A stretch of DNA of 64,000 nucleotides from Halichondria panicea (Eukaryota; Porifera; Demospongiae; Suberitida; Halichondriidae), in the NCBI RefSeq assembly GCF_963675165.1, contig NC_087386.1, forward strand, positions 5,090,169-5,154,168, read 5' to 3'. This document shows, in pieces, positions 7,537-62,840 of this stretch (position 1 is the stretch's first letter; every line of letters starts with the position of its first letter). The position numbers and the translations under genes are program-made. Under the pieces are notes generated by a model, which had not been told where the DNA came from, did not search any database, and worked only from the letters and a program-made list of their open reading frames with translations.

Positions 7537-7639
7537 AGTAGAGTCTATAAGTATTTCCCCAAACACTTCAATTGCATACAAGTACATGTACGAACTGAGT
7601 CTCTGTTAACTTCATTGTGTATCAATCTACAAAGGTAAA

Positions 7640-34084: not shown

Positions 34085-34480
34085 GTAGACTGTAATATTT
34101 ACATACGCTGAAGGAATGAAGCAAAACTCGTCAGCTGAAAGTTGACACCAGTAAATTACCGCTTACGAATGATCAAAGAGTCCATTGATTGTTAAAAGTT
34201 GTTGAGTGTTAAAAGTGCACAATTTTCATACCTTCAGAGATATCCTGAACCACATATTCTGTACCACTTTATACTGTTTCTGTAAAATGTTTGTTACTAT
34301 CAAGTGGAGCAACACAACTTAGGACACCAGTTCCATCTAAATTGTGACACATGACAGTCACTGTTGTTGCCGGGTACTACGCGATATATACCAGTAACAG
34401 CATTGCTCTGAAGGAATGAGATCCAATAGCAAAGTGGGAACTATCCTGCTTTGTGCAGCTGCCATACTTATTTTTCCCTT
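34085..34480 (-). pseudogene. Ig receptor pseudogene fragment
   Basis: Homologous to the Ig exon of the array (FCFIPSAY-type segment at about 34105; DCHVS / CCYWY segment at about 34350-34410) with many frameshifts. A signal-exon remnant (MAAAQSRIV) sits at about 34436-34475. Membrane and tail parts are absent. Left boundary member of the main array. Confidence 0.7.
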
Positions 34481-34748
34481 TTACAGCAATCGTTTATTTT
34501 GGCATACCGCTTTGAACTATAAGTCAACATTACAATTATGTACACACAAAACTCTAATTACCAGTGGGATCTTTTTTGTACTTGAAAGTTACAATATATC
34601 ACATGCAGTGAATTTTGGAGCACATACACAATAATTATATGCAGTTCAAAATTAACATTGCATGCATGTACCCAAATTAATGATGAATTCAAGTCTCTAT
34701 AATTTGCCCTCTACAAGGTTGATCAATTAGTCAGTGTATATCCACACT

Positions 34749-36745
34749 TCATGTACGAGCAGCTTCTTTTCTGTGCTCCAGTTTATCCTCTAACACTTTC
34801 GGTGCAGTAGGGAAGATATCGTATTGTGGGTCATCGAATACTCTCTCTTTCCCTTCCTCACTTCTCGATTGATCTAAGAGCTGTTCTTGGATTTTGATGT
34901 TTTGCTGACTGGGATCATTATAATTGAGTATACCATAAGCCGGAACAGTTGTGCTTGATTTGCGTTTAGGGATAGGTGGAGTCTGTTTCGGCTCGTTTGA
35001 AGTGATGGCGATGGTGGTACCGTTTGAAACAGCTTCCTCAAGAATATGATACTCACAGCTACCAGATGATTCATTTGCAAGTGTATTCTGTTGCTGAGAT
35101 GTCTTCACTACGCTGCCAAGATTTTCATATTGGTTGTCTTGAGATGTTTCTTCAACTGAGTTTCCCATCAATGTCAACTTGTGTGCATGTGTTCTGCTGT
35201 AGCGATGATCTTCCATGGAGTCCTCAGCTTTAATGGTGGCCTTTTGGCCTGGATTACTAACAAGGGAATGATCAAGAACATTGTATTGATTCTGAGATAA
35301 ACGGCTAGTGGAAAAGCTATCGAAAGAACATTGTGGTTGTTTTGACAGTTTATTATCACAAACATCTTCATAATATTGTGAGCTTTCAATTTGCAGTTGC
35401 TGTTTCGTATTGACAGCAGTTTTGTCTTTGTCTTGACCCACAGCCAAAATAATTTCATACGTGTGTGGTTCACCCTGATCTTCTTCTAGGTCAGTTGTTT
35501 GGAGGACATTGGTTTCTGCTTGATGCTCCAGCTCATTGTACTCATGCTCTACCATTTTATCACAGTCTGTAAGTGCTCTTTTACGATCACTGGCTGGCTC
35601 TTCAGTGGGTCGTGGGTTTTCCACATCTTCGTACTGGTGGACTTTCCTTCTTTTGAGACGCACAACTTGAGCATTATATCTATCTGAGGTATGATCCATT
35701 TCAGTTTGAGCAACACTTTGTACAACTGCAATGTATAAGAGAGATAATAATTATAATTATGCAAGATACTAAAGTTCCTAGTGACAAGGATTTTGGTCAA
35801 GATGGCCTAAGTAAATTAACAAGTTGTGGGTTCCCGCTACAAAAGGTCGTCTTACAACCACCTAGGACCACAACAATTACAACAAACAATGCTTCAATGA
35901 AGAAGCGTTACATGCATTCATCAGTGCTTCTCCTATTTCCATTCCAACCTTTTCTTCTAGTTTTCTTTCTCCAGCATATACAGATTCCAGCACAGCAGAT
36001 CAGAATGACCATCAGTATGAGTGTGAATCCCGCAGCTGGTACTGTCACTCCAAGACAGGCTACAAATCCTAAGTTTGTTAATTCTAGCTTACCACGACAT
36101 AGTTCTGGTTGAGTGGGTGTTGCTGGCGGAGTAGACACTGGTAGTGTGGTTGATGACACGGTATTTATTGAAGAGGTTGGTATTACTTGACAAGATGAAG
36201 AATTGTCTACTGCGCAAACTGGACTTTGCTGATAATTATATTCTGAATAACCAGAGCTTGTATTGACGGTAATATTCACATACGCTGATGGGATGAAGCA
36301 AAACCCGTCAGCTGAAAGTTGACACCAGTAAACACCACTGTCTGAGGAATTTATGTTATTAATAATTAGTTGATATCTGTCTTCAAAGAGTCCATTCATT
36401 GAAGTGTTAGACGAATTAAATTCATTTTTAGTTGACGTTTTAGAATTTTCATATCTATCAGTGACATTCTCGATCACAGATCCGTTGTTTCTGTACCATT
36501 TTACTGTTGCCAATGAATTGTTGCTACTATCGCGTGGAGCATATACTTCACATGTTAAGACAGCAGTTCCATTGTATGACACATGGCAGTCACTATAGTT
36601 GCGGGATACTTGCTTATACCAGTAACAGCATCGCTCTAGAATCAATTCAATGAATCAAATTTTGAACTACAATAATAATTATGTTACCTGAACAGTTCTG
36701 TCCCATTGAGGAGGGTACCAGTAGCACTAGCAGGAACAACAACAT
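34749..36745 (-). CDS. Type B Ig receptor, member 1 (long ITIM-like tail)
   Basis: Seen: exon 36688-36745 signal peptide (MLLFLLVLLVPSSMG). Exon 35949-36635 holds one V-type Ig domain (AVLTC, VKWYR, DSGVYWC), a cysteine-containing segment (FCFIPSAY; PVCAV), a Thr/Ser/Pro stalk and a helix (GFTLILMVILICCAGICICW) followed by RKK. Exon 34749-35725 is a long tail. All junctions are phase 1. The tail has YEDV, YNEL, YEII, YEDV, YNVL, YENL, YHIL, YGIL and YDIF motifs and PPIPKRK, a class II SH3 ligand. Many NxS/T sites suggest heavy glycosylation. Relative to siblings, the C-terminal end after EAA is shortened by a small deletion. Nearly identical to member 6 at 49 kb. Inferred: plasma-membrane recognition receptor signalling through SH2 proteins. 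Confidence 0.8.
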
Positions 36746-37540
36746 TATATTACTCGCAGCTATAATAGTATCGGTCGATCACTATGGCTCGACTTTAAGC
36801 AGTGAAGCAGTCTGTTAGTTTATTGTAAAGTCCATATAGCTAATGCAGTATACTGAAAGAAGCATTCCATATCCTGTTATATATATAACAGCATAGCTTA
36901 GTCAGAATAAACAGATTTTATTTCCTGTATAACATTAGGAAAACTTGCATCATATTGACATGCATACTCAAGGAAACTTGTGTGGTACATAGATCTACAT
37001 AGTGTGGTAGTAGAGACTGTTATTGAGTTTGCATGATTGTGCAAAACACAATTAGCTTACAAAGTACAGAATGTTTGCAAAACTGTTTGATGGGTATATG
37101 CAATTAATGGTACTGTTCAGTTTCAACATGCACAGGCATAAGCACTGTTACAGTAAACAAGTGGTGAGAACTATCCATTTCTGGTACACATACTTTAGGT
37201 GCAACAGCCACATAGTAATCTTTAACAGTCTGGCTTTTAAACTTCACTTGGTGACAGACTACACACATGCAGGGGGTGCTCTCACCACAGGGGAGCGTGT
37301 GTATTAATTGGACAGGGACAGGGACATAGCTTGCTCCCCCACACTCACGGGCACCCTCCCTCTAGATCACAAACGTATGTACAAAACAAGAGCAGCTTGG
37401 CACATTACGGTAAGCAACAAAGTCTCTACTGTTAAAATATCCATTTCTACCACAACGTTGTGATCCTTATAATAATCAGTATGCCAACTTTGTGACGTAG
37501 CTGATAACCAACTACAGATCATGTATAAAGACAGAGTTCA
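36746..37540. repeat. Conserved upstream flank of Ig array unit
   Basis: Sequence upstream of the signal exon, repeated beside other members at about 39160-40330, 46060-46740, 51001-51640, 53152-53820 and 62841-63500. Shared stretches include GTATCGGTCGATCACTATGG and GCACTGTTACAGTAAAC. Likely holds the promoter, but no core element is obvious. Confidence 0.55.
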
Positions 37541-37821
37541 GAATAGTATGATAAGCAAAAGTGTTGCTGACAGCAACTTTTACTTAGTTTGCTTATTGTT
37601 TCATATTAATTATCACTGGTACAGTTTTGTACACTGTACTTCCTTATAAGGTCGCTTTGATTCATGTTCTTGCATGGATTAGACAACGGATACATTATTG
37701 ACAGAACATCGTACCCAGATTTGACACAGGGGGGTTCCATATCAGACTCACCAGGATCACTTACATGTATGATCGGTGCGATTATCATTTAGACTAGAAT
37801 GTACACTAGGACTGAAGTACT

Positions 37822-38010
37822 TCATTCAGGGGCTATTGATATTTCTTTTCTAGAAGCCATGACATTGTCAGATATCTCTACGTATGTACCTCGTGGTAAA
37901 CACACACAATAAGGCCTTCGGTACAAAATGATTGCTAAAGAGTATGGGAGTGTTGTAAATCTATAACTAAGTAGGAGTTCAATCGAACCACGGAACATGT
38001 ACACCTCCAA
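37822..38010 (-). other. Conserved open frame 3' of type A genes
   Basis: A frame of 62 codons reading LPYSLAIILYRRPYCVCLPR then GTYVEISDNVMASRKEIS before a stop. The same frame stays open in copies at 47273-47491 and 57772-57960, and the sequence recurs near 40778, 49040 and 52078. It begins right after the type A stop codon. It may be 3' UTR that happens to be open, or an alternative last exon. Confidence 0.3.
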
Positions 38011-38021
38011 AAGTGTTTTTT

Positions 38022-39150
38022 TTAAAGTTCATTCGGTACACTATACACACTAATATAGTCCACTTTCGTTATGTCAATTGCCTCGTACGACTGTGTTTTG
38101 TTTTTGGCTGGGGTAGTAGCCAGGTTTGTTATTTGAGATGAATTTGGCAGAGAGTGGTAAGGATCCTCAACTGGTCCACCATCATTTGGATGTTCCGTCA
38201 ATATTGTAGCAGCTCCTTTATCTGCATGTGTAGACAGTGTGACATTGTATATATAGATAAGCATTGTATTAAAGCATGCAATGCAACATGTTATGTACAT
38301 TAATATTCAGGTATGTTAACATCTTATCCCGCGAGCTTACTTCTGCAAGTTTCACACTGGTTCTTCTTATCTCGTCTCGTCCAGGCCAATGCAAATATTG
38401 AAATAGTGACGAGTAGCATCACATGCAGCTAGCAGAACAATGATGAATGATAATGAACCAACCAACTCTTCAGTTGGTTGGTGATGTGGGATTTGAGGAG
38501 ACATTGATATCAGTGAACTAGTTAACAAAATGTTGGCCATAACTGTAGGAGTGGAATTGTTCACAAAAGGAGGAGTTGGTGTTACTTGACAGTATGGAGA
38601 ATTGTCTACTGCGCAAACTGGACTTTGCTGATAATTATATTCTAAACAACCAGAGCTTGTATTGAAAGTAATATTCACATACACTGATGGGATGAAGCAA
38701 AATCCGTCAGCTGAAAGTTGACACCAGTAAACACCACTGTCTGAAAAATTGACATTACGAATGATTAGTTGATATCTGTCTTCAAAGAGTCCATTCATTG
38801 AAGTGTTAGACGAATTAAATTCATTTTTAGTTGACGTTTTGGAATTTTCATTTCTATCAGTGACATTCTCGATCACAGATTCGTTGTTTCTGTACCATTT
38901 TACTGTTGCCAATGAATTGTTGCTACTATCACGTGGAGCATATACTTCACATGTTAAGACAGCAGTTCCATTGTATGACACATGGCAGTCACTATAGTTG
39001 CGCGATACTTGCTTATACCAGTAACAGCATTGCTCTAGAACCAATTCAATGAATTAAATTTTGAACTACAATAATAATTATGTTACCTGAACAGTTCTGT
39101 CCCATTGAGGAGGGTATACCAGTAGCACTAGCAAGAACAATAAAATTATT
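38022..39150 (-). pseudogene. Type A Ig receptor, member 2 (broken)
   Basis: Tail exon 38022-38221 is open (EDPYHSLP, VDYISVYSVPNEL). The Ig exon (to about 39035) is open through the Ig domain and stalk, but a 4-base insertion near 38425 shifts the membrane helix. The signal exon (about 39087-39150) has lost its ATG and has two extra bases. Three independent faults make this a pseudogene, though it is young. Closest relative: member 7 at 52-53 kb. Confidence 0.8.
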
Positions 39151-39397
39151 TTACTCACAGCTATAATAGTATCGGTCGATCACTATGGCTCGACTTAAGC
39201 AGTGAAGCAGTCTGTTAGCTTTATCGTAAAGTCCATAATTATAGCTAATGTAGAACATACTGAAAGAACGCATTCCCTATATCCTGTTATATATTAAACA
39301 GGGTTATATAATAATTATAACGGCATAGCTTAGTCAGAATAAACAGCTTTTACTCCCTGTATAACATTAGAAAAACATGCATCACATTGACATGCAT

Positions 39398-40948: not shown

Positions 40949-42120
40949 TTAAAGTTCATTCGGTACACTATACACACTAATATAGTCCACTTTCGCTATG
41001 TCAATTGCCTCGTACGACTGTGTTTTGTTTTTGGCTGAGGTAGTAGTCAGGTTTGTTACTTGAGATGAATTTGGCAGAGAGTAGTAAGGATCTTCTACTG
41101 GTCCACCATCATTTGGATGTTCCGTCAATATTGTAGCAGCTCCTTTACCTGTATGTGTAGACAAGCATGACATTGTATAGAAAAGCATTGTATTAAAACA
41201 TGCAATGCAACGTGTTATACTTCAGGTATGTCCCACGAGCTTACTTCTGCAAGTTTCACACTGGTTCTTCTTATCTCGTCTCATCCAGGCCAATGCAAAT
41301 ATTGAAATAGTGATAAGTAGCGTCACAGCTAGCAGAGCAATAATAAATGATAGGGAACCAACCAACACTGAAGAGTTGGTTGGTGATGTCGGGATTCGAG
41401 GAATGGCTACAGGAGACATTGATATCAGTGAACTAGTTAACGAAATGTTGGTCATAACTGTAGGAGTGAAATCGTGGACTAAAAAAGAAGTTGGTGTTAC
41501 TTGATGACAAGATGAAGAATTGTTTACTGCGCAAACTGGACTCCATTGATAACTAAAGCTTGAACAACCATTTTTATTCAAGCTTGAATTGACAGTGATA
41601 TTCACATATGCTGATGGGATGAAGCAAAACCCGCCAGCTGAGATTTGACACCTGTAAATACCACTGTCTGAAGAATTGATGTTACCAATGGTTAGTTTAT
41701 AATTGTTTTGAAAAAGTCCATCAATTGGAGTGTTAGGAGAATTAAATGCAATTTCGGTGAACATCACAGAATTTTCATATCTATCAGAGATATCCTCGAC
41801 CACAGATTGAATGATTCTGTACCACTTCACTGTTGCGTTGTTACTATCACGTGGAGCATATACTCCACATGTTAAAGCAGCTGTTCCACCTTCTGACACA
41901 TGACAGTCACTGTTGTTGCCGGGTACTCTCTGATACCAGTAACAACATCGCTCTGAATGAATAATCCAATGGCAAAATGAAATGAGTAGCTCTATATCTA
42001 GCTTATGATAAAATAATAGCAAAACTCACCTGAGCAGTTTTGAGCAAGAGTGCATTGAAACAGAGCTAGTCCTATAAAAACTAGCAGCTGCCAAACTATC
42101 CTGCTTCGTCCAGCTGCCAT
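40949..42120 (-). CDS. Type A Ig receptor, member 3 (short ITAM-like tail), intact
   Basis: Seen: exon 42030-42120 signal peptide (MAAGRSRIVWQLLVFIGLAL). Exon 41245-41952 has an Ig V-type domain (ALTCGVYAP, VKWYR, DSGIYRC), then FCFIPSAYVNITV, GCSS/PVCAV cysteines, stalk, and helix LVGSLSFIIALLAVTLLITI with MRRDKKNQCETC. Exon 40949-41148 is a 66-residue tail. Phase 1 at both junctions, no internal stop. The tail has EDPYYSL, SYEAI and VDYISV; YEAI and YISV are six residues apart, close to an ITAM, and VDYISV fits the ITIM consensus. No charged residue in the helix. Inferred: surface receptor able to recruit SH2 proteins. Counterpart in the second block: member 8, which is dead. Confidence 0.85.
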
Positions 42121-42507
42121 ACTCTTTTAGTAGATTTACATATACTACACGTACCTTTTACGGCAATTGCTTATCAAAATGTTGACTTATTCAATGTGGT
42201 ATGCAAAACTGAACTGTATAGAAGCCTTATACAGTCCCATTTTGAATAAGTCAACATTGGAGTGTTGATATGACACAAACAAATCACTTAAATTACATCG
42301 ATAGGGTGGTCTACCACTGACTAAAGTGCATATAGGGGCTCATACACACAATGATTTGCATTTAGCTACAAAAATAGTTATGAGAGAGGTGGGTGGTTAC
42401 AGAACATGTGTGTATTCAGAATAATGTTGTGTATTTCGAAAAAAAGTACGAGTTAAAAATTGCATGTAACAAACAGTGTAATTTCATGTTACAGACAATA
42501 CAATATG

Positions 42508-43674
42508 TCAGTGTGTATCCACACTTCATGTACGTCTGTCAGCTCATCAAAAGGGAATGTCTCAATCGGAGAAACTTCTCTTCTGTGCTTCGGTTCATCC
42601 TCTAAAACTAACAGTGCAGTAGGGAGAATATCATAATTATTGTGGGTCATCTCTTTCCCTTCCAATTCTCGATTGATATAACCAGGAGCCCATAAAGAGA
42701 AGGAGCGGCTAACTACGGGGATCACATCTCGTAATTGGTTATGACCGCATTTCCATATATGCAGGGTCACTAAGTGGTTGAATCCCTACACGTGTTTTAC
42801 GCAATGCAGGGATGCGGTTTGTAAGCACTTAGTCACTTCCATACAAGGAAGTGCGGTTTCACCGGCAATTACGAGATGTGATCCCCGAGTGTACGTTGAA
42901 GTTAGCCGCTCCTTCTCTTTATGGGCTCCTGATATAACTGAGAGCTGTTCTTAGATTTAGATTTCTTGCTGGCTGGAATTGTTATAAGAGTACACCATAA
43001 GCCCAACAGTTGTGTTTGGCTTGCGTCTAAGGATAGGTAGAGTCTGTTCTGGCTGGTTTGAAGTGGTGGGGATGGTGGTACCGTTTGAAACAGCTTCCTC
43101 AAGAACATGTGCTAACCTGTGATAACAACAAGACGGAATGGTTACTGCGCAAACTGGACTCCGCTGATAGAACATTCATCTACATGTACATTCATGCTTG
43201 TATAAGTAATATTCACATACGCCGATGGGATGAAGCAAAACCCGTCAGCTGAAAGTTGACACCAGTAATTAAATTACCACTGTCTGAAGAATTGATGATA
43301 CGAATGGTTAGTTTACAAAGAGTTCATTGATTGTAGTGCTAAAAAAATGCAATTTGGGCGAACGTATAGAATTTTCATACCTTCAGAGATATTCTCGACC
43401 ACAGATTCGATGATTCTGTACCACTTTACTGTTGCTTTTTTGAATTGTTGTGACTATCACGTGGAGCAAATACTCCACATGTTAAAACAGCAGTACCACC
43501 TTCTGACACATGACAGTCACTGTTGTTGCCAGGTACTCTCTGATACCAGTAACAGCATCGCTCTGAATGAATGATTAGCTTTAGCTTATTACATATTTCA
43601 CCTGGCAGTTCTGAGCAGAGATAATTATTATAAAGACTGCATGCCAAACTCATCCTGCTCCGTGCAGCTGCCAT
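42508..43674 (-). pseudogene. Fused type B pseudogene (tail joined to Ig, no membrane part)
   Basis: Left part matches type B tail (LTDVHEVWIHTD end; VLEEAVSNGTT). At about 43110 it passes directly into the Ig-exon segment SPVCAV and on to RCCYWYQRVPG and a signal-like MAAARSRMSLACS. The stalk, helix and first half of the tail are deleted, with frameshifts elsewhere. A MITE (42683-42931) splits the tail. A sister copy without the MITE is at 59615-60531, so the deletion predates block duplication. Confidence 0.8.
42683..42931. mobile_element. 249-bp hAT-like MITE with empty site in sister copy
   Basis: Inverted ends CAGGAGCCCATAAAGAGAAG and complement. Flanking ATATAAC repeats (7-8 bp duplication). 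The sister pseudogene at about 59785 reads GATTGATATAACTGAGAGC without interruption. Confidence 0.85.
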
Positions 43675-43966: not shown

Positions 43967-46057
43967 TTAGTCATTGTGTATCCACACTTCATGTACGTCT
44001 GTCAGCTCATCAAAAGGAAATGTCTGAATCTGAGTAGCTTCTCTTCTGTGCTCCGCTTCATCTTCTAACACTTTCGGTGCAGTAGGGAGAATATTGTATT
44101 GTGGATCATCGAATACCCTCTCTTTGCTTTCCTCAATTATTGATTGATGTAAGGGCTGATCTTGGATTTTGATGTTTTGCTGGCTGGAATCATTGTAATT
44201 GAGTACACCATAAGCTGGAACAGTTGTGTTTGATTTGTGTTTAGGGATAGGTGGAGTCTGTTCTGGCTGGTTTGAAGTGGTGGGGATGGTGGTACCGTTT
44301 GAAACAGCTTCCTCCAGAACATGATACTCACATGTACAGCTACCAGATGATTCATTTGCAAGTGTATTCTGTCGCTGAGCTGACTTTACTACTCTGCTGC
44401 CAAGATTTTCATATTGGTTGTCTTGAGATGTTTCTTCGACAGAGTTTCCCATCAATGTCAACGTGTGTGCATGTGTTCTGCTGTAGCGATGATCTTCCAT
44501 GGAGTCCTCGCTAGTAATAGCTTTAATGGTGGCCTTTTGTCCTGGATTAGTGACAAGAGAGTGATCAAGAACGTTGTATTGATTCTGGGATGAACAGCTA
44601 GTGGAAAAGCTATCGAAAGAACTTTGTGGTTGTTTTGGCAGTTTATTATCACAAACATCTTCATAATATTGTAGGCTTTCAATTTGCAGTTGCTGTTTCG
44701 TATTGACAGCAGTTTTGTCTTTGTCTTGACTCACAGCCAAAACCATTTCATACATGTGTGGTTCACCCTGATCTCCTTCTAGGTTTATTTTTTGGAGGGC
44801 ATTGGTTTCTGCTTGATGCTCCAGCTCACTGTACTCATCATCTACCATTTTATCACCATCTGTATGTGTTCTTTCACGATCACTAACTGGCTCTTCAGTG
44901 TGTTCATCAGGTCGTGGGTTTTCCACGTCTTCGTACTGGTGGACTTTTCTTCTTTTGAGACGCACAACTTGAGCATTAGATCTATCTGAGGTATGATCCA
45001 TTTCAGTCTGAGCCACACTCTGTGCAACTGCAAATATAAAAGTGAAATACTTAAAAACAAAATGTGTATTATGCTACAGTTCCTAGTGACAGGGATTGTA
45101 GGGCTACGTTAATTTAACAAGTTGTGGGTTCCCGCTACAAAACGTCGTCTAATACAAGCACTTAAGACCACAAAAATGAGATCAACAATGTGCTTTTATA
45201 AAGGTGCTTCTCCAAATCCATTCACCTTTTCTTTTAGTTTTCTTTCTCCAGCATATACAGATTCCAGCACAGCAGATCAGAATGACCATCAGTATGAGTG
45301 TGAATCCTGCAGCTGGTACCATCACTCCAAGACAGGCTACAAATCCTAAGTTTGCTACATTTAGAGCACCACGACATAGTTCTAGTTGAGTGGTTGTTGT
45401 TGACGAAGTAAGACTAGTCATAACAGGAAATATTGACGTTACAGTTGATGATATGGTCTGTAGTGAAAGGGTTGGTGTAACTTGACAAGATGACGGATTG
45501 TTTAGTGCGCAAACTGGACTCTGCTGATATTTAACACTTGAACAACCATTTCCATTCAAGCTTGTATTGACAGTAATATTCACATACGCTGATGGGATGA
45601 AGCAATTCCCGTTAGCTGAGAGATGACACCAGTAAACACCACTGTCTGATAAATTAATGCTATGAATGATTAGTTGATATCTGTCTTGAAAGAGTCCATT
45701 GATTGGAGAGTTAGAAGAATCAAATGCAAGTCGGGCGGATATAATAGAATAAATCAATTTTCATACCTATCAGAGATATCCTCGACCACAGATTCACTTC
45801 TGTACCATTTTACTGTTGCCAGTAAAGTGTTATTACTATCATGTGGAGCGTATACTCCACATGTTAAGACAGCTGTACCATCTTCTGACACATGACAGTC
45901 ACTGTTGTTGCCAGGTACTGTCTGATACCAGTAACAGCATTGTTCTGTAACCAAAATTCAATGATTTACTTTTGTAGTCAAACCATAAAATAATGTTACC
46001 TGAACAGTTCTGTCCCATTGATGAGGGTACCAGTAGCACTAGCAGGAACAACAACAT
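43967..46057 (-). CDS. Type B Ig receptor, member 4 (8-base insertion in Ig exon)
   Basis: Exons: signal 46000-46057 (MLLFLLVLLVPSSMG), Ig/stalk/helix 45226-45944, tail 43967-45027, with phase 1 joins. The tail is full length, about 350 residues, with nine tyrosine motifs (YEDV, YSEL, YEMV, YEDV, YNVL, YENL, YHVL, YGVL, YNIL), TPPIPKHK and the end LTDVHEVWIHND. Beside its relative at 62 kb, the Ig exon has eight extra bases just after DRYEN (about 45755-45762), giving an immediate stop; the rest of the domain is open in another frame. Either a recent null allele or an assembly error, since everything else is intact. Confidence 0.7.
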
Positions 46058-47490: not shown

Positions 47491-47830
47491 CTAATAATAG
47501 TCCACTTTCGTTATGTCAATTGCCTCGTACGACTGTGTTTTGTTCTTGGCTGGGGTAGTAGTAGTCAGGTTTGTTACTTGAGATGAATTTGGCAGAGAGT
47601 AGTAAGGATCCTCAACTGGTCCACCATCATTTGAACGTTCCGTCAATATTGTAGCAGCTCCTTTATCTGCATGTGTAGATAAGCATGACATTGTATATAG
47701 AAAAGCATTGTAACATGTATGATAATGTCTTATCCCACGAGGGCTTACTTTTGCAAGTGTCACACTGGTTCTTCTTATCTCGTCTCATCCAGGCCAATGC
47801 AAAGATGGCAATTATAGTGATGAGTAGTGC
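47491..47830 (-). pseudogene. Type A Ig receptor, member 5 (3' fragment)
   Basis: Tail exon (47491 to about 47667) has one extra base so that it stops at VDYY and loses the last motif. The membrane exon survives only from LLITI to the donor (IFALAWMRRDKKNQCDTC). No Ig or signal exon: upstream flank sequence follows directly. It separates the two duplicated blocks. Confidence 0.8.
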
Positions 47831-47958
47831 ATCATAATTATTGACATGCATACTCAAAACATTCAAGGAAACTTGCGTGGTTGGTACATAGATCTACATA
47901 GTGCAGTAATAAAGACTGTTATTGAGTTTGCATGATATATTGTGCAAAACACATTTAA

Positions 47959-48843: not shown

Positions 48844-49136
48844 TTAACTTACAATTCAAAGTATAGCAAAACTGTTTAATGTGTATATGCAATTAATGGT
48901 ACTGTTTCAGTTTCAATATGCACAGGCATAAGCACTGTTACAGTAAACTGTACACAAAATGTTAGCAATAACAGGTGGTGAGAACAATCCATTTCTGGTA
49001 CGCGCATTAATTACACTACACTAGGACTAAAGTACTTCATTCAGGTGCTATTGATCTTTCTTTTCTAGAAGCCATGACATTGTCAGATATCTCTACGTAT
49101 GTACCTCGTGGTAAACACACTCACTTCTCGATTGAT

Positions 49137-51000
49137 CTAAGAGCTGTTCTTGGATTTTGATGTTTTGCTGACTGGGATCATTATATAATTGAGTACACCA
49201 TAAGCCGGAACAGTTGTGCTTGATTTGCGTTTAGGGATAGGTGGAGTCTGTTCCGGCTCGTTTGAAGTGATGGCGATGGTGGTACCGTTTGAAACAGCTT
49301 CCTCAAGAATATGATACTCACAGCTACCAGATGATTCATTTGCAAGTGTATTCTGTTGCTGAGCTGTCTTCACTACGCTGCCAAGATTTTCATATTGGTT
49401 GTCTTGAGATGTTTCTTCAACTGAGTTTCCCATCAATGTCAACTTGTGTGCATGTGTTCTGCTGTAGCGATGATCTTCCATGGAGTCCTCAGCTTTAATG
49501 GTGGCCTTTTGGCCTGGATTACTAACAAGGGAATGATCAAGAACATTGTATTGATTCTGAGATGAACGGCTAGTGGAAAAGCTATCGAAAGAACATTGTG
49601 GTTGTTTTGACAGTTTATTATCACAAACATCTTCATAATATTGTGAGCTTTCAATTTGCAGTTGCTGTTTCGTACTGACAGCAGTTTTGTCTTTGTCTTG
49701 ACCCACAGCCAAAATAATTTCATACGTGTGTGGTTCACCCTGATCTTCTTCTAGGTCAGTTGTTTGGAGGACATTGGTTTCTGCTTGATGCTCCAGCTCA
49801 TTGTACTCATGCTCTACCATTTTGTCACAGTCTGTAAGTGCTCTTTTACGATCACTGGCTGGCTCTTCAGTGGGTCGTGGGTTTTCCACATCTTCGTACT
49901 GGTGGACTTTCCTTCTTTTGAGACGCACAACTTGAGCATTATATCTATCTGAGGTATGATCCATTTCAGTTTGAGCAACACTTTGTACAACTGCAATGTA
50001 TAAGAGAGATAATAATTATAATTATGCAAGATACTAAAGTTCCTAGTGACAAGGATTTTGGTCAAGATGGCCTAAGTAAATTAACAAGTTGTGGGTTCCC
50101 GCTACAAAAGGTCGTCTTACAACCACCTAGGACCACAACAATTACAACAAACAATGCTTCAATGAAGAAGCGTTACATGCATTCATCAGTGCTTCTCCTA
50201 TTTCCATTCCAACCTTTTCTTCTAGTTTTCTTTCTCCAGCATATACAGATTCCAGCACAGCAGATCAGAATGACCATCAGTATGAGTGTGAAACCTGCAG
50301 CTGGTACCGTCACTCCAAGACAGGCTACAAATCCTAAGTTTGTTAATTCTAGCTTACCACGACATAGTTCTGGTTGAGTGGGTGTTGCTGGCGGAGTAGA
50401 CACTGATAGTGTGGTTGATGACATGGTATTTATTGAAGAGGTTGGTATTACTTGACAAGATGAAGAATTGTCTACTGCGCAAACTGGACTTTGCTGATAA
50501 TTATATTTGAAATAACCAGAGCTTGTATTGAAAGTAATATTCACATACACTGATGGGATGAAGCAAAACCCGTCAGCTGAAAGTTGACACCAGTAAATAC
50601 CACTGTCTGAAAAATTGACATTACGAATGATTAGTTGATATCTGTCTTCAAAGAGTCCATTCATTGAAGTGTTAGACGAATTAAATTCATTTTTAGTTGA
50701 CGTTTTGGAATTTTCATATCTATCAGTGACATTCTCGATTACAGATTCGTTGTTTCTGTACCATTTTACTGTTGCCAATGAATTGTTGCTACTATCACGT
50801 GGAGCATATACTTCACATGTTAAGACAGCAGTTCCATTGTGTGACACATGGCAGTCACTATAGTTGCCGGATACTTGCTTATACCGGTAACAGCATTGGT
50901 CTAGAATCAATTCAATGAATCAAATTTTGAAATGCAATATTAATTATGTTACCTGAACAGTTTTGTCCCATTGAGGAGGGTACCAGCAGGAACAACACAT
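49137..51000 (-). CDS. Type B Ig receptor, member 6 (signal exon and tail end damaged)
   Basis: Ig exon 50214-50900 and tail 49137-49990 are open and nearly identical to member 1. In the Ig start the conserved CCYWYKQ reads CCYRYKQ. The signal exon 50953-51000 is 48 bp where siblings have 58, so its ATG is out of phase with the next exon. The tail has two extra bases near 49182 and stops after PAYGVLNY; beyond that the sequence joins type A downstream flank DNA at about 49120, so the last tyrosine motif is gone. Expression as a surface protein would need another start. Probably a young pseudogene. Confidence 0.65.
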
Positions 51001-52277: not shown

Positions 52278-53151
52278 TTTAAGTTTATTCGGTACACTAT
52301 ACACACTAATATAGTCCACTTTCGCTATGTCAATTGCCTCGTACGACTGTGTTTTGTTTTTGGCTGAAGTAAGTAGCCAGGTTTGTTATTTGAGATGAAT
52401 TTGGCAGAGAGTAGTAAGGATCCTCTACTGGTCCATCTCGTCTTGTCCTGGCCAATGCAAATATTGAAATAGAAATGATAGTGAACCAACCAACTCTTTA
52501 GTTGGTTGGTGATGTGGGATTTGAGGAGACATTGATATCAGTAAAATGTTGGCCATAACTGTAGGAGTGGATATTCACAAAAGGAGGAGTTGGTGTTACT
52601 TGACAAAATGAAGAATTGTCTACTGCGCAAACTGGACTTTGCTGATAATTAAATTCTAAATAACCAGAGCTTGTATTGAAAGTAATATTCACATACGCTG
52701 ATGGGATGAAGCAAAACCTGTCAGCTGAAAGTTGACACCAGTAAACACCACTGTCTGAAGAATTGACATTACGAATGATTAGTTGATATCTGTCTTCAAA
52801 GAGTCCATTCATTGAAGTGTTAGACGAATTTAATTCATTTTTAGTTGACGTTTTAGAATTTTCATATCGACATTCTTGAGCACAGATTTGTTGTTTCTGT
52901 ACCATTTTACTGTTGCCAATGAATTGTTGCTACTATCACGTGGAGCATATACTTCACATGTTAAGACAGCAGTTCCATTGTGTGACACATGGCAGTCACT
53001 ATAGTTGCCGGGTACTTGCTTATACCAGTAACAGCATCGCTCTAGAATCAATTCAATGAATCAAATTTTGAACTACAACAATAATTATGTTACCTGAACA
53101 GTTCTGTCCCATTGAGGAGGGTACCAGTAGCACTAGCAAGAACAACAACAT
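52278..53151 (-). pseudogene. Type A Ig receptor, member 7 (deleted)
   Basis: Signal exon 53094-53151 is intact (MLLFLLVLLVPSSMG). The Ig exon starts well (RCCYWYKQVPGNYSDC) but has a frameshift near 52875 and loses most of the membrane helix. At about 52435 the tail exon is joined directly to RRDE-region sequence, so the intron and start of the tail are deleted. Relative of member 2. Confidence 0.8.
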
Positions 53152-54387: not shown

Positions 54388-55633
54388 ACAGTGCAACAAC
54401 CAAAGAGAGTAGATTTTTTTTTATATTATTTTTTTTCACATTTTGTGGCATATCTTCTGAAGTAAAAGTGATATGATCTATTTGAGTGCAGGTACTGAAA
54501 GTTCAATTATTGGCGCTTCCATTGGACCACCACCTGTTACATCATATGACATCATCACTATGAAATGGCTGTCTGAAGATGTGTACCTCCGAAAATATGT
54601 TAGGAATAGAAGTAGCTTATTTGTTTGAGTTAAGATCTGAAATTTATTGTGTATGTACCTGACTATATTGCTCATCTTTTGAGCTTCAACAGAAGTCTGG
54701 GCTGCTAGTAAGTTCTGAGAAATACTGAATTTTGTTGTTTTTTGGTGGCAAATATGTTAGGAATACAACTTTCGATTTTATGCTAGTTAAGGTCTGATTT
54801 TTGAGGAGCATGTACTACAATAGCATAGAATTCATCTGTACTAACTTACAGGAGCTAGACAAGTCTCATCTTTGCTAGAGCGGCCCTTCTTGTCAAAAAT
54901 GGTGATTTTGCTCCGTTTTGCTACTTTTGCTGACGTATGCAATGATATTCATTGATTTGTGACATCACAAATCATCCTGTTGTTATTTGCTACATCCAAA
55001 GGTCATGCGATGTCTACCTGCAAATACACAGTTGGTGTTGGTCATTCTGTGTCACAGGGGCGTGGTAATTGAGCTTACTACGTAGCCAAATCGCCCCAAA
55101 AGTCATAAAAAGTACTGTTTTTGACAAGATGGGCCGCTCTAGCAAAGAAGAGGCTAGCCTAACTCCTGTAAGTTAGTACAGATGAAAAGTACACTATTGT
55201 AGTACATGCTGCTCAAAAATCAGACCTTAACTAATATAAAATCGAAAGTTGTATTCCTAACATATTTGCCACCAAAAAACAACAAAATGCAGTATTTCTC
55301 AGAACTTACTAGTAGCCCAGACTTCCCTTGAAGCTCAAAAGATGAGCAATATACTCAGGTACATACACAACAAATTTCAGATCTTAACTCAAACAAATAA
55401 GCTACTTCTATTCCTAACATATTTTCAGAAGTACACATCTTCAGACAGCCATTTTATACTGATGATGTCATGTGATGTAACAGGTGGTGGTCCAATGGAA
55501 GCGCCAATAGTTGAACTTTCAGTACCTGCACTCAAATAGATCATATCACTTTTACTTTAGAAGATATGCCACAAAATGTAAAAAATGTGTACCAAAAAAA
55601 AAAATCTACTCTCTTTGGTTGTTGCACTATAGC
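54388..55633. repeat. Giant inverted repeat, arms about 515 bp
   Basis: Arms about 54388-54905 and 55118-55633 with a spacer of about 210 bp. Matching 65-codon frames appear on opposite strands at 54478-54675 and 55342-55539 merely because the arms are inverted copies. No known protein motif. Confidence 0.8.
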
Positions 55634-55854: not shown

Positions 55855-57270
55855 GGTTTCCACATGAAAATTAAAAGTCAACAAATGAGGCTCAAATTTT
55901 TGTTGCACACTACACTACATGAAAGTATAATGGTTGCACCTTCAAATCCAAAATTTCGCTACTCTTATTCTAGCAATGGTGCTCTTTATTTCACAACATT
56001 TCTCTCAAAGGTCAAAGCCAAAGGTCATTGTGATCTCTAATAAAATGTGATTTTCAAACTGTGGATGAAAGCTATGACTCTCCTTTTGCTTTGCATCCAT
56101 TCCTATACTAACTAGTAGTGTGTGGATCACCCCAAACTGGAGAAAGGATTCTCACAGGTGAGTATTTTTATGGTTAGCAGCACATAGTACCACTAGTAAG
56201 TCAAACATTGTGACGATTTACCGAATGCCGTTGAAATTGCTAGTTCCTCATGTGATTGTCAGAAAGTACCAAGCCTAAATAGTCCATGTATCAAATAACA
56301 GACAAAATGCTAATTTTTTACCAACTGGCTGGAGTGCTTTTTATTTTTATTAGTGTTTGCATCCCATAAATGTACCCCCATTGTCTCATTGAGCATGGTA
56401 GACGCTTCATATAGATGCCGCATTGTAGTAGAATGATCACAAGTGATGGTGAAGAAATACAATGATTATACACCACTATCTACATTCAGGTGCGAAGCAG
56501 AAGGTTTCGAGGTATCATCCTACAGTGTCAAGATCAATCTACCTGCTCAACAATACAACACAGTAATACAGCATAAAGTGTGTCTATTCTTCCGAAAACA
56601 AAGTCAGAACTGGATCACCTAGCTATTAAAATACTGTTGGAGCAGGAATTTAGGATTAAATTATTTCACGTTTGTGTTCCGATTTCATGGTATTTCAATT
56701 AAAAATACAAGAATGAATACTGGTACTAACTACTTTACATACAAAAAGAAGTAAAATCTTATTTTGATATTGTTTAAAGAGTGTTGTATCATTGAGCAGG
56801 TAGATCGATCTTGACACTGTATGATGATACCTCGAGACCTTCTGCTTTGCACCTGAATGTAGACAGTGGTATATGATCATTGTATTTCTTCACCATCACT
56901 TGTTATCATTCTACTACAATGTGGCATCTATATGAAGCGTCTACCATACTCAATGAGACAATGGGGGTACATTTATGGGATGCAAACATTAATAAAAATA
57001 AAAAGCACTCCAGCCTGTTGGTAAAAAATTAGCATTTTGTCTGTTAATTGATACATGGACTACTTAGGCTTAGTACTTTCTGAAAATCACATGAGGAACT
57101 AACAATTTCAACGGCATTATCGGTAAATCGTCACAATGTTTGACCTACTAGTGGTACTATGTGCTGCTACCTATAAAAATACTCACCTGTGAGAATCTTT
57201 TCTCCAGTTTGGGGTGATCCACACTCAGGCTCATTCGTTGACTTTCATTTTTCATTGTGGAAACCCTAAC
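55855..57270. repeat. Second giant inverted repeat
   Basis: The arms pair GGGTTTCCACATGAAAATT (about 55857) with its complement near 57265, and 56145-56572 with 56775-57215. The left arm carries about 250 bases with no partner. Loop about 56573-56774. Confidence 0.75.
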
Positions 57271-57969: not shown

Positions 57970-59164
57970 TTAAAGTTCATTCGGTACACTATACACACTA
58001 ATGTAGTCCACTTTCGTTATGTCAATTGCCTCGTACGACTGTGTTTTGTTTTTGGTTGGGGTAGTAGTAGTCAGGTTTGCTCCTTGAGATGAAGATGGCA
58101 GAGAGTAGTAAGGATCCTCTACTGGTCCACCATCATTTAGATGTTCCGCTAATATTGTAGCAGCTCCTTTATCTGCATGTGTAGATAAGCATGACATTGT
58201 ATAGATAAGCTAAAACATGCAATGCAACATGTTATGTACATTAATATTCAGGTATGTTAATGTCTTATCCCGCGAGCTTATACTTCTGTAAGTTTCACAC
58301 TGGTTCTTCTTATCTCGTCTCATCCAGGCCAATGCAAAGATGACAATAGTGATGAGTAGTGTCACAGCTAGCAGAGCAATGATAAATGATAGTGAACCAA
58401 CCAACACTGAAGAGTTGGTTGGTGATGATGTCGGGATTCGAGGAATGGCTACTGGAGATATTAAACTAGTTAACGCAATGTTGGCCATAACTGTAGGAGT
58501 GGAATTGTTCACCAAAAAGGGAGGAGTTGGTGTAACTTGACAAGATGACGGGTTGTTTAGTGCGCAAACTGGACTCCGCATATAATTAACACTTGAACAA
58601 CCATTTCCATTCAAGCTTGTATTGACAGTAATATTCACATATGCTGATGGCATTAAGCAAAACCTGTCAGCTGAGAGATGACACCAGTAAACACCACTGT
58701 CTGAGGAATTGATGCTGCGAATAATTAGTTTATAATTATCTCAAAAGAGTCCATTGATTGGAGAATTAACTGCAATTGTGGCGAGCGTCATAGAATTTTC
58801 ATACTTATCAGAGATATCCTCGACCACAGATTCACTTCTGTACCATATTACTGTTGCCAGTAAAGTGTTATTACTATCACATGGAGCGTATACTACACAT
58901 GTTAAGACAGCTGTACCACCTTCTGACACATAACAGTCACTGTTGTTGCCAGGTACTCTCTGATATCAGTAACAGCATTGCTCTGCATGAATGATCCAAT
59001 GGCAAAAGTGAAATGATTAGCTCTAGCTTATTTGATTATATAGCATAATTTATCATGATAGCAAACTCACCTGAGCAGTTCTGAGCTAGATTGTATTGAA
59101 ACAGAGCTAATCCTATAAAGACTAGCAGCTGTTGCCAAACTATCCTGCTTCGTGCAGCTGTCAT
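57970..59164 (-). pseudogene. Type A Ig receptor, member 8 (nonsense mutations)
   Basis: Signal exon (to 59164, MTAARSRIVWQQLLVFIGLA) and tail exon 57970 to about 58172 (EDPYYSLP, VDYISVYSVPNEL) are intact. The Ig exon, donor at about 58283, has two nonsense codons. The Trp of CCYWY is TGA (about 58965), and the Arg of the NGLFRDNY segment, CGA in member 9, is TGA (about 58741). FCFIPSAY has become FCLMPSAY. The stalk and helix are open. Counterpart of intact member 3. Confidence 0.8.
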
Positions 59165-59614
59165 ACTCTTTTATTCTGTGAAGTGATAAGTAGATTTACA
59201 TATACTACACGTACCTTTTACGGCAATTGCTTATCAAAATGTTGACTTATTCAATGTGGTATGCAAAACGGAACTGTATATAAGCCTTATACAGTCCCGT
59301 TTTAAGTCAACATTGGAGTGTTGATACAACACAAACAAATCACTTAAATTAAGTAGTTTATACATGGACAGGGTGGTCCACCACAGACTAAAGTGCATAT
59401 AGGGGCTCATACACAATGATTTGCAATGTTTTTTTAACTACAAAAATAGTTATGAGAGAGGTAGGTGGTTACAGAACATGTATGTATTCAGAATAATGTC
59501 GTGTATTAAATAAGTCGTGTATTTGCTACGAGTTAAAACAATTGCATATAACAAACAGCGTAATTTCAAATCTCTCTATTACAGACAATACAATGTGTCT
59601 GTAAAGATTGATAA

Positions 59615-60531
59615 ATTAGTCAGTGTGTATCCACACTTCATGTACGTCTGTCAGCTCATCAAAAGGGAATGTCTCAATCGGAGAAACTTTCCTTCTGTGC
59701 TCCGGTTCATCCTCTAAAACTTTCAGTGCAGTAGGGAGAATATCATATTGTGGGTCATCTTTTTCCCTTCCTCAATTCTCGATTGATATAACTGAGAGCT
59801 GTTCTTAGATTTAGATTTCTTGCTGGCTGGAATTGTTATAAGAGTACACCATAAGCCCGAACAGTTGTGTTTGGCTTGCGTTTAGGGATATCATAGGTGG
59901 AGTCTGTTCTGGCTGGTTTGAAGTGGTGGGGATGGTGGTACCGTTTGAAACAGCTTCCTCAAGAACATGTGCTAACCTGTGATAAGAACAAGACGGAATG
60001 ATTACTGCGCAAACTGGACTCCGCTGATAGAATATATTCATGTACATGTACATTCATGCTTGTATCAAGTAATATTCACATACGCTGATGGGATGAAGCA
60101 AAACCCGTCAGCTGAAAGTTGACACCAGTAAATTACCACTGTCTGAAGAATTGATGATACTAGTTTACAAAGAGTTCATTGATTGTAGTGCTAAAAAAGT
60201 GCAATTTGGGCGAACGTATAGAATTTTCATACCTTCAGAGATATTCTCGACCACAGATTCGATGATTCTGTATCACTTTACTGTTGCTTTTTTGAATTGT
60301 TGTGACTATCACGTGGAGCAACTACTCCACATGTTAAAACAGCAGTACCACCTTCTGACACACGACAGTCACTGTTGTTGCCAGGTACTCTCTGATACCA
60401 GTAACAGCATCACTCTGAATGAATGATTAGCTTTAGCTTATTACATATTTCACCTGGCAGTTCTGAGCAGAGATAATTATTATAAAGACTGCATGCCAAA
60501 CTCATCCTGCTCCGTGCAGCTGCCATAGTTC
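59615..60531 (-). pseudogene. Fused type B pseudogene, second copy
   Basis: Same tail-to-Ig fusion as 42508-43674: type B tail end, VLEEAVSNGTT, then SPVCAV, FCFIPSAY-like and RVPGNNSDC segments, and a signal-like start (about 60447-60527). It lacks the MITE found in its sister. Frameshifts throughout. Confidence 0.8.
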
Positions 60532-60811
60532 TCAGTGCAAATGATAAGTATAATCCCTCTTACACATTGTTTATTTTTGAATACCGCTTTGAAGTGTGTA
60601 AGTCAACATTGTATAATGTGGCTATGTACACACAAAAACTCTGCACGGATCTTTTTTGCACTCGAAAGTTACAATTACATGCATGCAGTGACAGAGAAAG
60701 CTGTCTTAATCCACTATTCATGCTACACAATACATTATACACACAATTATTGTTGCATGTAACAAACGGTGTCTCTATTTGCAACATTGTATACAAGGGT
60801 TGCATGATCAA

Positions 60812-62840
60812 TTAGTCAGTGTGTATCCACACTTCATGTACGTCTGTCAGCTCATAAAAAGGAAATGTCTGAATCTGAGTAGCTTCTCTTCTGTGCTCCG
60901 CTTCATCTTCTAACACTTTCGGTGCAGTAGGGAGAATATTGTATTGTGGGTCATCGAATACCCTCTCTTTGCTTTCCTCAATTATTGATTGATGTAAGGG
61001 CTGATCTTGGATTTTGATGTTTTGCTGGCTGGAATCATTGTAATTGAGTACACCATAAGCTGGAACAGATTTGTGTTTAGGGATAGGTGGAGTCTGTTCT
61101 GTCTGGTTTGAAGTGGTGGGGAAGGTGGTACCGCTTGAAACAGCTTCCTCCAGAACATGATACTCACAGCTATCAGATGATTCATTTGCCAGTGTATTCT
61201 GTCGCTGAGCTGACTTTACTACTCTGCTGCCAAGATTTTCATATTGGTTGCCTTGAGATGTTTCTTCGACAGAGTTTCTCATCAATGTCAACGTGTGTGC
61301 ATGTGTTCTGCTGTAGCAATGATCCTCTGTGGAGCCCTCGCTGGTAACAGCTTTAATGGTGTCAGCATTGCTAACAAGAGAGTGATCAAGAACATTGTAT
61401 TGATTCTGGGATGAACGGCTAGTGGAAAAGCTATTGAGTGGTTGTTTTGACAGTTTATTATCACAAACATCTTCATAGTATTGTGAGCTTTCAATTTGCA
61501 GCTGCTGTTTCGTATTGACAGCGGTTTTGTCTTTGTCTTGACTCACAGCCAAAACCGTTTCATACGTGTGTGGTTCGCCCTGATCTCCTTCTAGGTCAGT
61601 TGTTTGGAGGGCATTGGTTTTTTCTTGATGCTCCAGCTCATTGTACTCATGATCTAGTGTTCTTTCACGATTACTGACTGGCTCTTCAGCAGTATGTTCA
61701 TCAGGTCGTGGGTTTTCCACGTCTTCGTACTGGTGGGCTTTCCTTCTTTTGAGACCCACAACTTGAGCATTAGATCTATCTGAGGTATGATCCATTTCAG
61801 TTTGAGCCACATACTGCACAGCTGCAATGTAAGAGTGAATTATAAAAAAAGTGTATAATTATTATGCTACAGTTCCTAGTGACAGGGATTGTGTGGTGCT
61901 AAGTTAATTAATTTTAACAAGTTGTGGGTTCCCGCTACAAAAGGTAGTTTTACAAGCACCTAAGACCACAACAATGAGATCAACAATGTGCTTTTATAAA
62001 GGTGCTTCTCCAAATCCATTCACCTTTTTTTTTAGTTTTCTTTCTCCAGCATATACAGATTCCAGCACAGCAGATCAGAATGATCATCAGTATGAGTGTG
62101 AACCCTCCAGCTGGCACCGTCACTCCAAGACAGGCTGCAAATCCTAAGTTTGTTACATTTAACTCACCACGACATAGTTCTAGTTGAGTGGGTGTTGCTG
62201 ACGGAGTCATAACAGGAGATATTGGCGTTACGATTGATGACATGGTCTGTAGTGAAGGAGTTGGTGTAACTTGACAAGACGAAGAATTGTCTACTACTGC
62301 GCAAACTGGACTCCGTTGATAATTAACACTTGAACAACCATTTCCATTCAAGCTTGTATTGACAGTAATATTCACATATGCTGATGGGATGAAGCAAAAC
62401 CCGTCAGCTGAGATTTGACAAAAGTAAATACCACTGTTTGAAGAATTGATGCCATGAATAGTTAGTACATAATTGTCTCGAAAGAGTCCATTGATTGGAG
62501 AGTTAGAAGAACTAAGTGCAATTTGGGCGTACATCATAGAACTTTCATACCTATCAGAGATATCCTCGACTATAGATTCAATAATTCTGTACCACTTTAA
62601 TGTCGCCATTGAATTGTTGTTACTATCACGTGGAGCATATACTTCACATTTTAAGACAGCAGTACCACCTTCTGACACATAACAGTCACTGTTGTTGCCG
62701 GGTACTGTCTGATACCAGTAACAGCATCGCTCTGTAACCAAAACTCAATGCATTACTTTTGTAGTCTAACAATAAATGTTACCTGAACAGTTCTGTCCCA
62801 TTGATGAGGGTACAAGTAGCACTAGCAGGAACAACAACAT
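60812..62840 (-). CDS. Type B Ig receptor, member 9 (long ITIM-like tail), intact
   Basis: Seen: exons 62783-62840 (signal, MLLFLLVLLVPSSMG), 62024-62731 (Ig V-type: AVLKCEVYAP, LKWYR, NSGIYFC; then FCFIPSAY, GCSS, PVCAV; stalk; helix GFTLILMIILICCAGICICW and RKKTKKK) and 60812-61821 (tail). All joins are phase 1 and the frame is open to the stop at 60812. The tail has YEDV, YNEL, YETV, YEDV, YNVL, YENL, YHVL, YGVL and YNIL plus TPPIPKHK. YENL also fits the Grb2-type pYxN pattern. Cysteines at the inner face of the helix could be acylated. The best complete example of the long-tail type; likely expressed at the cell surface. Confidence 0.85.

Follow-up and report, generated by a model that had tools for sequence, protein, structure and literature searches.

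A tandem cluster of candidate paired-type immunoglobulin receptors with two tyrosine-motif tail classes in the sponge Halichondria panicea

The locus described here is probably a fast-turnover cluster of germline innate recognition receptors of the paired type, in which V domains have been exchanged between two signalling classes of old origin, as they have in vertebrate paired receptors. The window, which is the whole 64,000-nucleotide stretch that was analysed, lies on contig C10 of Halichondria panicea at 5.09-5.15 Mb, and the preliminary description was thus correct in assigning it to a sponge. For an intact gene the predicted product is a type I membrane protein in which a single V-set domain is followed by a Ser/Thr-rich stalk, one helix and either of two tails.

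Extent and gene structure of the cluster

When the window was mapped with tblastn and HMM, 11 Ig-bearing units were found between 34.06 and 62.84 kb, all of them on the minus strand, and a remnant at 47.5-47.9 kb with a helix and a tail was found in addition to these. This agrees with the eleven related minus-strand units reported earlier, and the start of unit 62.7 at 62840 matches the end of the span given at that time. The whole cluster, however, extends past that span, from about -50 kb to +72 kb in window coordinates (~120 kb), and contains 18 Ig units, 5 of which are intact. Between 34.06 and 62.84 kb only 36.6, 41.9 and 62.7 are intact (3 of 11) and the others are pseudogenes or fragments: units 39.0, 45.9, 50.9, 53.0 and 59.0 carry frameshifts or stops or lack the ATG, whereas units 34.4, 43.6 and 60.4 are degenerate (Table 1). 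The array itself largely stands as it was first described but its number of working genes had been overstated. Most gene copies end as pseudogenes. The two helix/tail types had also been said to alternate, which does not hold strictly; what recurs instead is a module of A, degenerate and B units that has been repeated through duplication. The tandem duplicates are 75-97% identical, some blocks being 94-96% and many pairs just 75-90% alike. Six-frame searches of the H. panicea genome gave no matches outside the cluster. One public contig has exons in common with the reference plus members that are absent from it, and the public contigs suggest that gene content varies between haplotypes.

Complete units consist of a signal exon, an exon for the V-set domain, stalk and helix, and a tail exon. 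The phase-1 joins of this three-exon plan, which had been proposed before, were read at both introns in 36.6, 41.9 and 62.7, and the RefSeq protein P0002 (LOC135342654 isoform X3), which begins in the stalk of unit 45.9 and spans the helix and tail, has an exon-2/exon-3 join identical to that of the cluster units. The signal exons are of two types, which corrects the earlier picture of a single type. The V-type Ig domain was confirmed by Pfam V-set (PF07686), which matched four of the five Ig-exon ORFs above its curated cut-off of 26 bits (best E 4.6e-9), the fifth, a partial ORF from a pseudogene, falling under it. The predicted fold is a V-type beta-sandwich, and sequence-profile matches in PDB were to general Ig proteins. 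Neither helix A nor helix B has a charged residue suggestive of adaptor pairing. Plus-strand ITAM-tail pieces were considered as adaptor genes and rejected, both copies having a lesion.

Table 1. Units, exons and remnants of the receptor cluster, in window coordinates
Feature	Position	Strand	Remarks
Unit 62.7 (type A, intact) exon 1, signal peptide MLLFLLVLLVPSSMGQNCS	62783..62840	-	ATG, phase-1 donor GTAACA
Unit 62.7 exon 2, V-set domain, Ser/Thr stalk, helix A	62024..62731	-	Pfam V-set E 2.8e-6; AF2 model; phase-1 joins
Unit 62.7 exon 3, tail A	60812..61821	-	9 YxxLIV motifs
Unit 41.9 (type B, intact) exon 1, signal peptide MAAGRSRIVWQLLVFIGLALFQCTLAQNCS	42030..42120	-	
Unit 41.9 exon 2, V-set domain, stalk, helix B	41245..41952	-	Pfam V-set E 4.6e-9
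Unit 41.9 exon 3, tail B with YEAIDIAKVDYISV	40949..41148	-	ITAM spacing
Unit 36.6 (type A, intact save shortened tail end) exon 1	36688..36745	-	
Unit 36.6 exon 2, V-set domain, stalk, helix A	35949..36635	-	Pfam V-set E 1.1e-8
Unit 36.6 exon 3, tail A	34749..35725	-	8 YxxLIV; without final ~20 residues of other tails
Unit 39.0, pseudogene mosaic	38025..39146	-	A-type front (signal, V), B-type helix/tail; start ATG lost, helix frameshift; breakpoint near 38570
Unit 53.0, pseudogene mosaic like 39.0	52281..53151	-	A-type front, B-type helix/tail; frameshifts; breakpoint near 52585
Unit 45.9 (type A)	43967..46057	-	Open signal exon and tail; Ig exon frameshift near 45757
Unit 50.9 (type A)	49129..51000	-	Open Ig exon; broken signal exon frame, frameshifted tail
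Unit 59.0 (type B)	57973..59164	-	Open signal exon and tail B; 2 stops in Ig exon
Unit 43.6, degenerate	42507..43674	-	B-like signal start, broken Ig, tail-A fragments
Unit 60.4, degenerate	59619..60526	-	Resembles 43.6
Helix B and tail B remnant	47494..47887	-	No Ig exon
Ig fragment (unit 34.4), degenerate	34061..34404	-	
Outlying degenerate B-type unit (Ig, helix B, tail B)	4361..7816	-	Adjoins tail-A remnant; outside the span first described

Signalling tails and candidate effectors

Tail A is long and has 7-9 YxxΦ motifs, where shuffles give about 2, and tail B is short; of the 13 proteins identified with tail B, 12 have a pair with ITAM spacing, YxxΦ-x6-YxxΦ. The ITAM consensus is YxxL/I-x6-8-YxxL/I, and when tail-B proteins were scanned for it 12 of 12 matched if V or M was also permitted, with L/I at both places in one (P0061). 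The ITIM consensus is [ILVS]xYxx[ILV]. It is also fitted by VDYISV, which occurs in 10 of the 12 tail-B proteins, and in tail A it was matched in one of six proteins (P0007) and in none of the five Halichondria tails. Since in most tail Bs the second tyrosine agrees with the ITIM consensus as well, calling either tail the positive one is guesswork. The H. panicea genome has genes for SHP-2-like, SHARK-like and PLCγ-like proteins; the SH2 group at C9:1.00 Mb, considered as Syk or SHP, reads as PLCγ. A probable sequence of events would be that binding of a ligand to the V domain brings about phosphorylation through a Src-family kinase, that the YxxΦ-x6-YxxΦ pair of tail B recruits the tandem-SH2 kinase SHARK and gives an activating output, that the 7-9 sites of tail A recruit SH2 proteins, for example SHP-2 and PLCγ, and give a damping or alternative output, and that the cell reads the balance of the two. 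The ligand may be microbial, or it may be a self/allo-marker.

Relatives and reassortment of V domains

A profile search of 5.8 billion proteins, with short-word sensitivity, gave 43 matches at E <= 0.001, and among these was a second lineage in which both helix types are also present. The two large contigs of the second lineage yielded no tail B, and P0061, which has tail B, derives from another source. Orthology to one conserved receptor was rejected, as there was no conserved single-copy relative among the 43 matches of this word-based search, whose reach is limited. Helices group by type across the lineages and the two helix classes are separate in both, whereas V domains group by lineage regardless of helix type (9 changes vs 7.9 in shuffles). 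A single helix-B clade was rejected for V domains with an AU p of 1e-8, the AU tests having been run after the trees were seen. The V tree is weakly resolved, such that on the 24 Halichondria rows starred branches alone force 2 helix changes and bootstraps give 8-9. Lineage and helix labels were assigned by hand from sequence. The 45-row alignment excludes P0002, P0007 and P0048, and the V tree has 42 rows, P0019, P0020 and P0022 being excluded for a short V part. The 24 rows in which helix changes were counted exclude P0024, whose ORF has no helix, and the 21 rows of the Halichondria AU test also exclude P0017, P0026 and P0029, which are B by stalk only. In the two-lineage AU test 31 of the 42 rows were used (excluded were P0017, P0021, P0024, P0025, P0026, P0029, P0036, P0040, P0043, P0044 and P0046), and P0031 was excluded too from the two-lineage helix tree.

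Helices follow type across lineages and V domains follow lineage, and so V domains have moved between the classes. Judged from these groupings, the two helix types predate the split of the two sponge-like lineages and V domains were exchanged between helix types through recombination or gene conversion, and therefore similar binding domains are found on receptors of both signalling classes. Closely related ectodomains are indeed present on two signalling classes in one cluster, and the AU tests and breakpoints point to conversion or recombination between classes as what keeps them similar. The parallel to paired receptors that had been drawn at the outset thus gains support from the reassortment of V domains and tails.

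The most variable V sites are chiefly around residues 28-30, 50, 66-71 and 85-94, and a hypervariable CDR3-like loop was rejected, the loop being comparatively conserved. Pooled pN/pS was below 1 in every segment: 0.68 in N+V, 0.86 in residues 50-94, 0.77 in the stalk, 0.54 in tail A and 0.55 in tail B. Single pairs exceeded 1 in 1 of 21 for N+V and in 7 of 21 for residues 50-94, a segment chosen after its variability was seen, and these values rest on few changes, so that positive (diversifying) selection is not shown by the pairwise counts.

Possible functions and known systems

Among vertebrate paired receptors, those whose ectodomains undergo gene conversion (CEACAM1-like; Siglec-11/16) likewise comprise related genes with a common V or N domain and two tail classes, and show recombination of the binding-domain exon and birth and death of copies (PMC2832619, PMC5701461). 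Unlike these, the sponge cluster has a single V-set on a Ser/Thr stalk, its tail A has 7-9 YxxΦ sites and lacks an ITIM in the five Halichondria tails that were scanned (P0007 has one), and the sponge receptor itself bears the ITAM-like motif. Salmonid NILT genes likewise form a cluster of V-type Ig receptors, with tyrosine-motif tails and 2 pseudogenes in a BAC of > 200 kb, and five of the six contain a single Ig domain (PMC3022915), but they are vertebrate, their tails differ, and their ITIM-bearing exons are phase 0 as opposed to phase 1 in the sponge tail exons. Hydractinia Alr and Botryllus FcoR are also multigene clusters of the IgSF, and their motifs are ITIM, hemITAM or core YxxI/L/V (PMC12065747). 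FcoR, however, combines a V-type Ig with sushi and two C2 domains (PMC12065747) and Alr ectodomains include both V-set and I-set types (PMC11999971), whereas each sponge unit has one Ig domain. Both are tied to allorecognition and the sponge cluster is not; the cnidarian parallel drawn earlier holds for organisation only. In Drosophila an ITAM tail of Draper is read by SHARK and an ITIM tail recruits the phosphatase Corkscrew, but these tails are described as splice variants from a single gene and not as an Ig receptor cluster (PMC4503800).

What these receptors recognise admits several readings. We tentatively entertain that they are microbial-pattern or phagocytosis receptors whose V domains track bacteria taken up in filter feeding, pathogen mimicry keeping the classes paired as proposed for CEACAMs, in which the N domain was converted between ITIM and ITAM members (PMC2832619). 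Expression of pattern-recognition receptors is individual-specific in H. panicea (PMC8242945), but the available text of that source does not name the family of this cluster. An allorecognition (histocompatibility) role, in which polymorphic V domains would bind allelic self/non-self partners on sponge contact and the A/B tails would set fusion or rejection, is possible but rather doubtful. It agrees with a multigene cluster in one interval with two tail classes, with differences in gene content between the reference and a contig that has identical tail exons, and with a 2025 review in which multigene haplotypes are common to invertebrate allorecognition systems and cnidarian and ascidian gene content varies, with putative activating and inhibitory members (PMC12065747). 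However, the haplotype has 5 intact genes only, pooled pN/pS is below 1, and microbe receptors can show the same pattern.

That the units are ordinary adhesion or developmental Ig receptors in tandem, with reassortment as a neutral by-product of unequal crossing-over, would be in keeping with that same pN/pS, with the general Ig proteins matched in PDB, and with duplicates whose 75-97% identity favours ectopic recombination. We consider this unlikely, given that the two helix classes remain separate in both lineages, tail motifs are far more numerous than in shuffles, the pseudogene load is heavy, and the word-based search, within its limited reach, found no conserved single-copy relative. An assembly artefact, either haplotypes falsely duplicated in tandem or indel errors that mimic pseudogenes, is highly improbable: the 94-96% blocks could be read in this way, but lesions differ among copies, many pairs are far less alike, and a 147,124-bp contig encodes exons matching six units (39.0, 45.9, 47.8, 62.7, 66.6 and 70.3), though this contig may derive from the same reads and is therefore not fully independent support.

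Aggregation factors are the usual candidates for self/non-self discrimination in sponges, and we know of no established mechanism by which sponges make this distinction. They are also named in a sponge grafting transcriptome study (PMC5450542), whose main text contains neither "immunoglobulin" nor "receptor". A review describes signalling of the ITIM/ITAM type as a feature that allorecognition shares from cnidarians through to mammals (PMC12065747). Among the matches listed from open-licence literature, with paywalled work outside its scope, no title or beginning of an abstract was on such sponge receptors. The arrangement of two tail classes with V-domain exchange is best known from vertebrate immune receptors. 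It is conceivable, if hardly likely, that this is a sponge histocompatibility receptor complex in which a recombining pool of V domains serves two tail classes of ancient origin, one ITAM-like and one poly-YxxΦ, NK-like paired signal balancing then being older than the split of sponges from other animals. On that reading cross-unit splicing could even add further combinations, since all joins read are phase 1. For the preferred reading as paired innate receptors, the combination in a sponge of two tail classes bearing tyrosine motifs, exchange of V domains, and SHARK-like and SHP-2-like effectors would extend the paired-receptor design into Porifera, and the cluster supplies concrete genes for tests of self/non-self recognition in sponges.

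Extent of the cluster and anatomy of its units

When the genome assembly (G000; 131 Mb, 39 contigs, the window being C10:5090169-5154168) was searched in six frames with an Ig exon, with the long tail A and with the short tail B, there were at least 25, 13 and 18 matches, respectively, and all of them were in C10 5.040-5.161 Mb. In the 294 kb examined around the window the family begins near -50.3 kb and ends near +72.3 kb (window coordinates). A 6.6-kb block is present twice (57.8-64.3 and 65.3-71.8 kb, 94% identity) and further blocks in the cluster are duplicated at 75-97% identity, and thus duplication has occurred repeatedly. A RefSeq protein of Halichondria panicea, 'uncharacterized protein LOC135342654 isoform X3', matches unit 45.9 in helix and tail; its first residue falls within the stalk of this unit.

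As read from the sequence, exon 1 of a unit encodes the signal peptide, exon 2 the V-set domain, a Ser/Thr-rich stalk and the helix, and exon 3 the tail. Exon-by-exon reading covered 12 of the 18 Ig-bearing units; the remaining six match only in part or are interrupted by stops. Both introns were phase 1 in every unit read for them, and the helix and the tail each come in two types, as proposed in the preliminary description; the signal exon, which it had taken as common to the units, is indeed present but is of two types. It placed at least eleven units in 34085..62840, and eleven Ig-bearing units were found there, but in only three of these are the frames open and the splice sites usable, compared to five among all 18. 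The inverted repeats between units are possibly mobile elements. PTP exons gave 176 matches genome-wide, and among the matches listed most were on C4.

Open units and other features in and around the cluster and elsewhere in the genome
Feature	Position	Type or strand	Observation
Unit 36.6	within window	A	open, tail end shortened
Unit 41.9	within window	B	open
Unit 62.7	within window	A	open
Unit 66.6	just past window	B	open
Unit 70.3	just past window	A	open
Separate Ig-domain ORF	window 2005-3044	+	Ig_2 E 1e-6; then ORF with helix (by eye)
Ankyrin-repeat and protein-kinase ORFs	window 11121-22977	-	repeated copies, 93% over 300 bases
Two long inverted repeats	window 54432-55585 and 56224-57118		arms 489 and 338 nt, 92-94%
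ORF at right edge of cluster	window coordinates 74150-73365 (flanks L016/L017)	-	helix (by eye); weak Ig match, PF00047 E 0.003, under cut-off
Divergent tail-A paralogue	window -48627 to -49499 (flank L011)		block duplicated 39 kb away, 96%
Plus-strand pieces	window 63554-64000 and L016:1-569	+	signal-like stretch open, very short one-Cys ectodomain
Second plus-strand copy	L016 about 7140-8306	+	signal-like stretch not open
Other V-set exon groups	C10:1.636-1.729 Mb; C4:5.660-5.720 Mb; C9:2.4646-2.4752 Mb		8, 5 and 4 matches
PTP exons	C4 about 0.04-2.6 Mb		very many; looks like expanded PTP array
L035	C3:8.4026-8.4067 Mb		SH2, SH2, PTP exons
L036	C9:5.2540-5.2594 Mb		SH2, ankyrin repeats, SH2, tyrosine kinase in order (by eye)

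V domains, helix types and gene content

At the level of sequence, V domains have been reassorted between the tail types. The profile search returned 43 proteins (E <= 0.001), and the V tree has 42 rows, 25 Halichondria-like, 16 from a second lineage and P0040, which stands apart. The second lineage, chiefly on the 391,469- and 680,520-bp contigs, carries a third helix type besides A and B. The three groups cost 2 changes on the V tree and helix type cost 13, and on the helix tree, which has few columns, helix type cost 2 changes and the branch holding all helix-B rows of both lineages had a support of 100/99. On the Halichondria-only V tree helix type cost 9 changes compared to a shuffled mean of 7.9 (bootstraps 8-9), with the starred branches alone forcing just 2, and in the strict Halichondria rows it cost 6 compared to 6.0. 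In AU tests, which were post hoc as the trees had already been seen and the groups were set by helix or lineage, the V data rejected a single helix-B clade in Halichondria (p 6e-67) and across the two lineages taken together (p 1.2e-8), and the helix data rejected a lineage clade (p 1.6e-4).

Units 39.0 and 53.0, both pseudogenes, switch from A-like to B-like nucleotides near 38570 and 52585, respectively, each inside one 75-base step. On the first side they are 73-100% like A units and 53-87% like B, and beyond the switch 80-97% like B and 32-47% like A; the two switches are probably one common event. P0014 is a mosaic whose Ig-exon frame is open, and P0009 and P0010 have stalk and helix in common and differ in V.

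A 147,124-bp contig carries exons that match units 39.0, 45.9, 47.8, 62.7, 66.6 and 70.3 with at most 1 residue of difference, at the called start. A 1,155,512-bp contig carries the tails at -15.3 and 4.4 kb without any difference, in P0004 and P0055, and also encodes P0005, P0013, P0015, P0018, P0026 and P0057, for which the reference region offers matches of 71-88% at best. The simplest reading is that this contig would be another haplotype with different gene content; many relatives on small contigs are likewise missing from the reference region. Pooled pN/pS, from seven Ig exons of which two are of pseudogene origin, was 0.68 for N+V (1 of 21 pairs above 1), 0.86 for residues 50-94 (7 of 21), 0.77 for the stalk and 0.57 for the helix, and for tails A and B it was 0.54 and 0.55. 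The family evolves fast, and positive selection is not demonstrable from pN/pS.

Tails and candidate signalling effectors

Six A tails have 7-9 YxxLIV motifs compared to about 2 in shuffles (p <=0.0005), tail A of P0007 from the second lineage has 8 compared to 1.65, and the divergent paralogue at -48.6 kb has 6 compared to 1.5. The ITAM-spaced pair was absent from all six tail-A proteins scanned. The tail-B motif is YEAIDxxKxDYISV or a near variant, and YxxΦ-x6-YxxΦ is present in 12 of the 12 proteins scanned; P0059, among the 13 found altogether, stops short of the second motif. The pair is retained in the divergent plus-strand copies, where its second half is YVQM or YMQM, and is doubled in P0061. 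Since 2.9% of shuffled B tails also yield the pair, its spacing by itself is modest evidence and the weight lies on conservation. The second tyrosine also fits the ITIM consensus in 10 of 12 proteins, so the signal may be of either sign. In the plus-strand pieces, which have no Ig exon, the very short ectodomain with its one Cys goes with a segment resembling helix B and an ITAM-like tail, a layout that is adaptor-like, with a lesion in each of the two copies; P0060 is related to their tail.

One SH2 ORF of L035 matches SHP-2 (E 4e-58), the type to which Corkscrew belongs. We take the domain order of L036 to be the SHARK layout, and by eye L034 reads as a putative PLCγ. In flies, as described in PMC4503800, the Draper-I ITAM is acted on by SHARK, and Corkscrew is recruited by the Draper-II ITIM and Shark is then dephosphorylated by Corkscrew. 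This provides an invertebrate precedent for an ITAM/ITIM switch with such proteins. We claim no membership in a named vertebrate or cnidarian family, and we infer the signalling, ligand and role of the cluster; it would work like a paired-receptor cluster.
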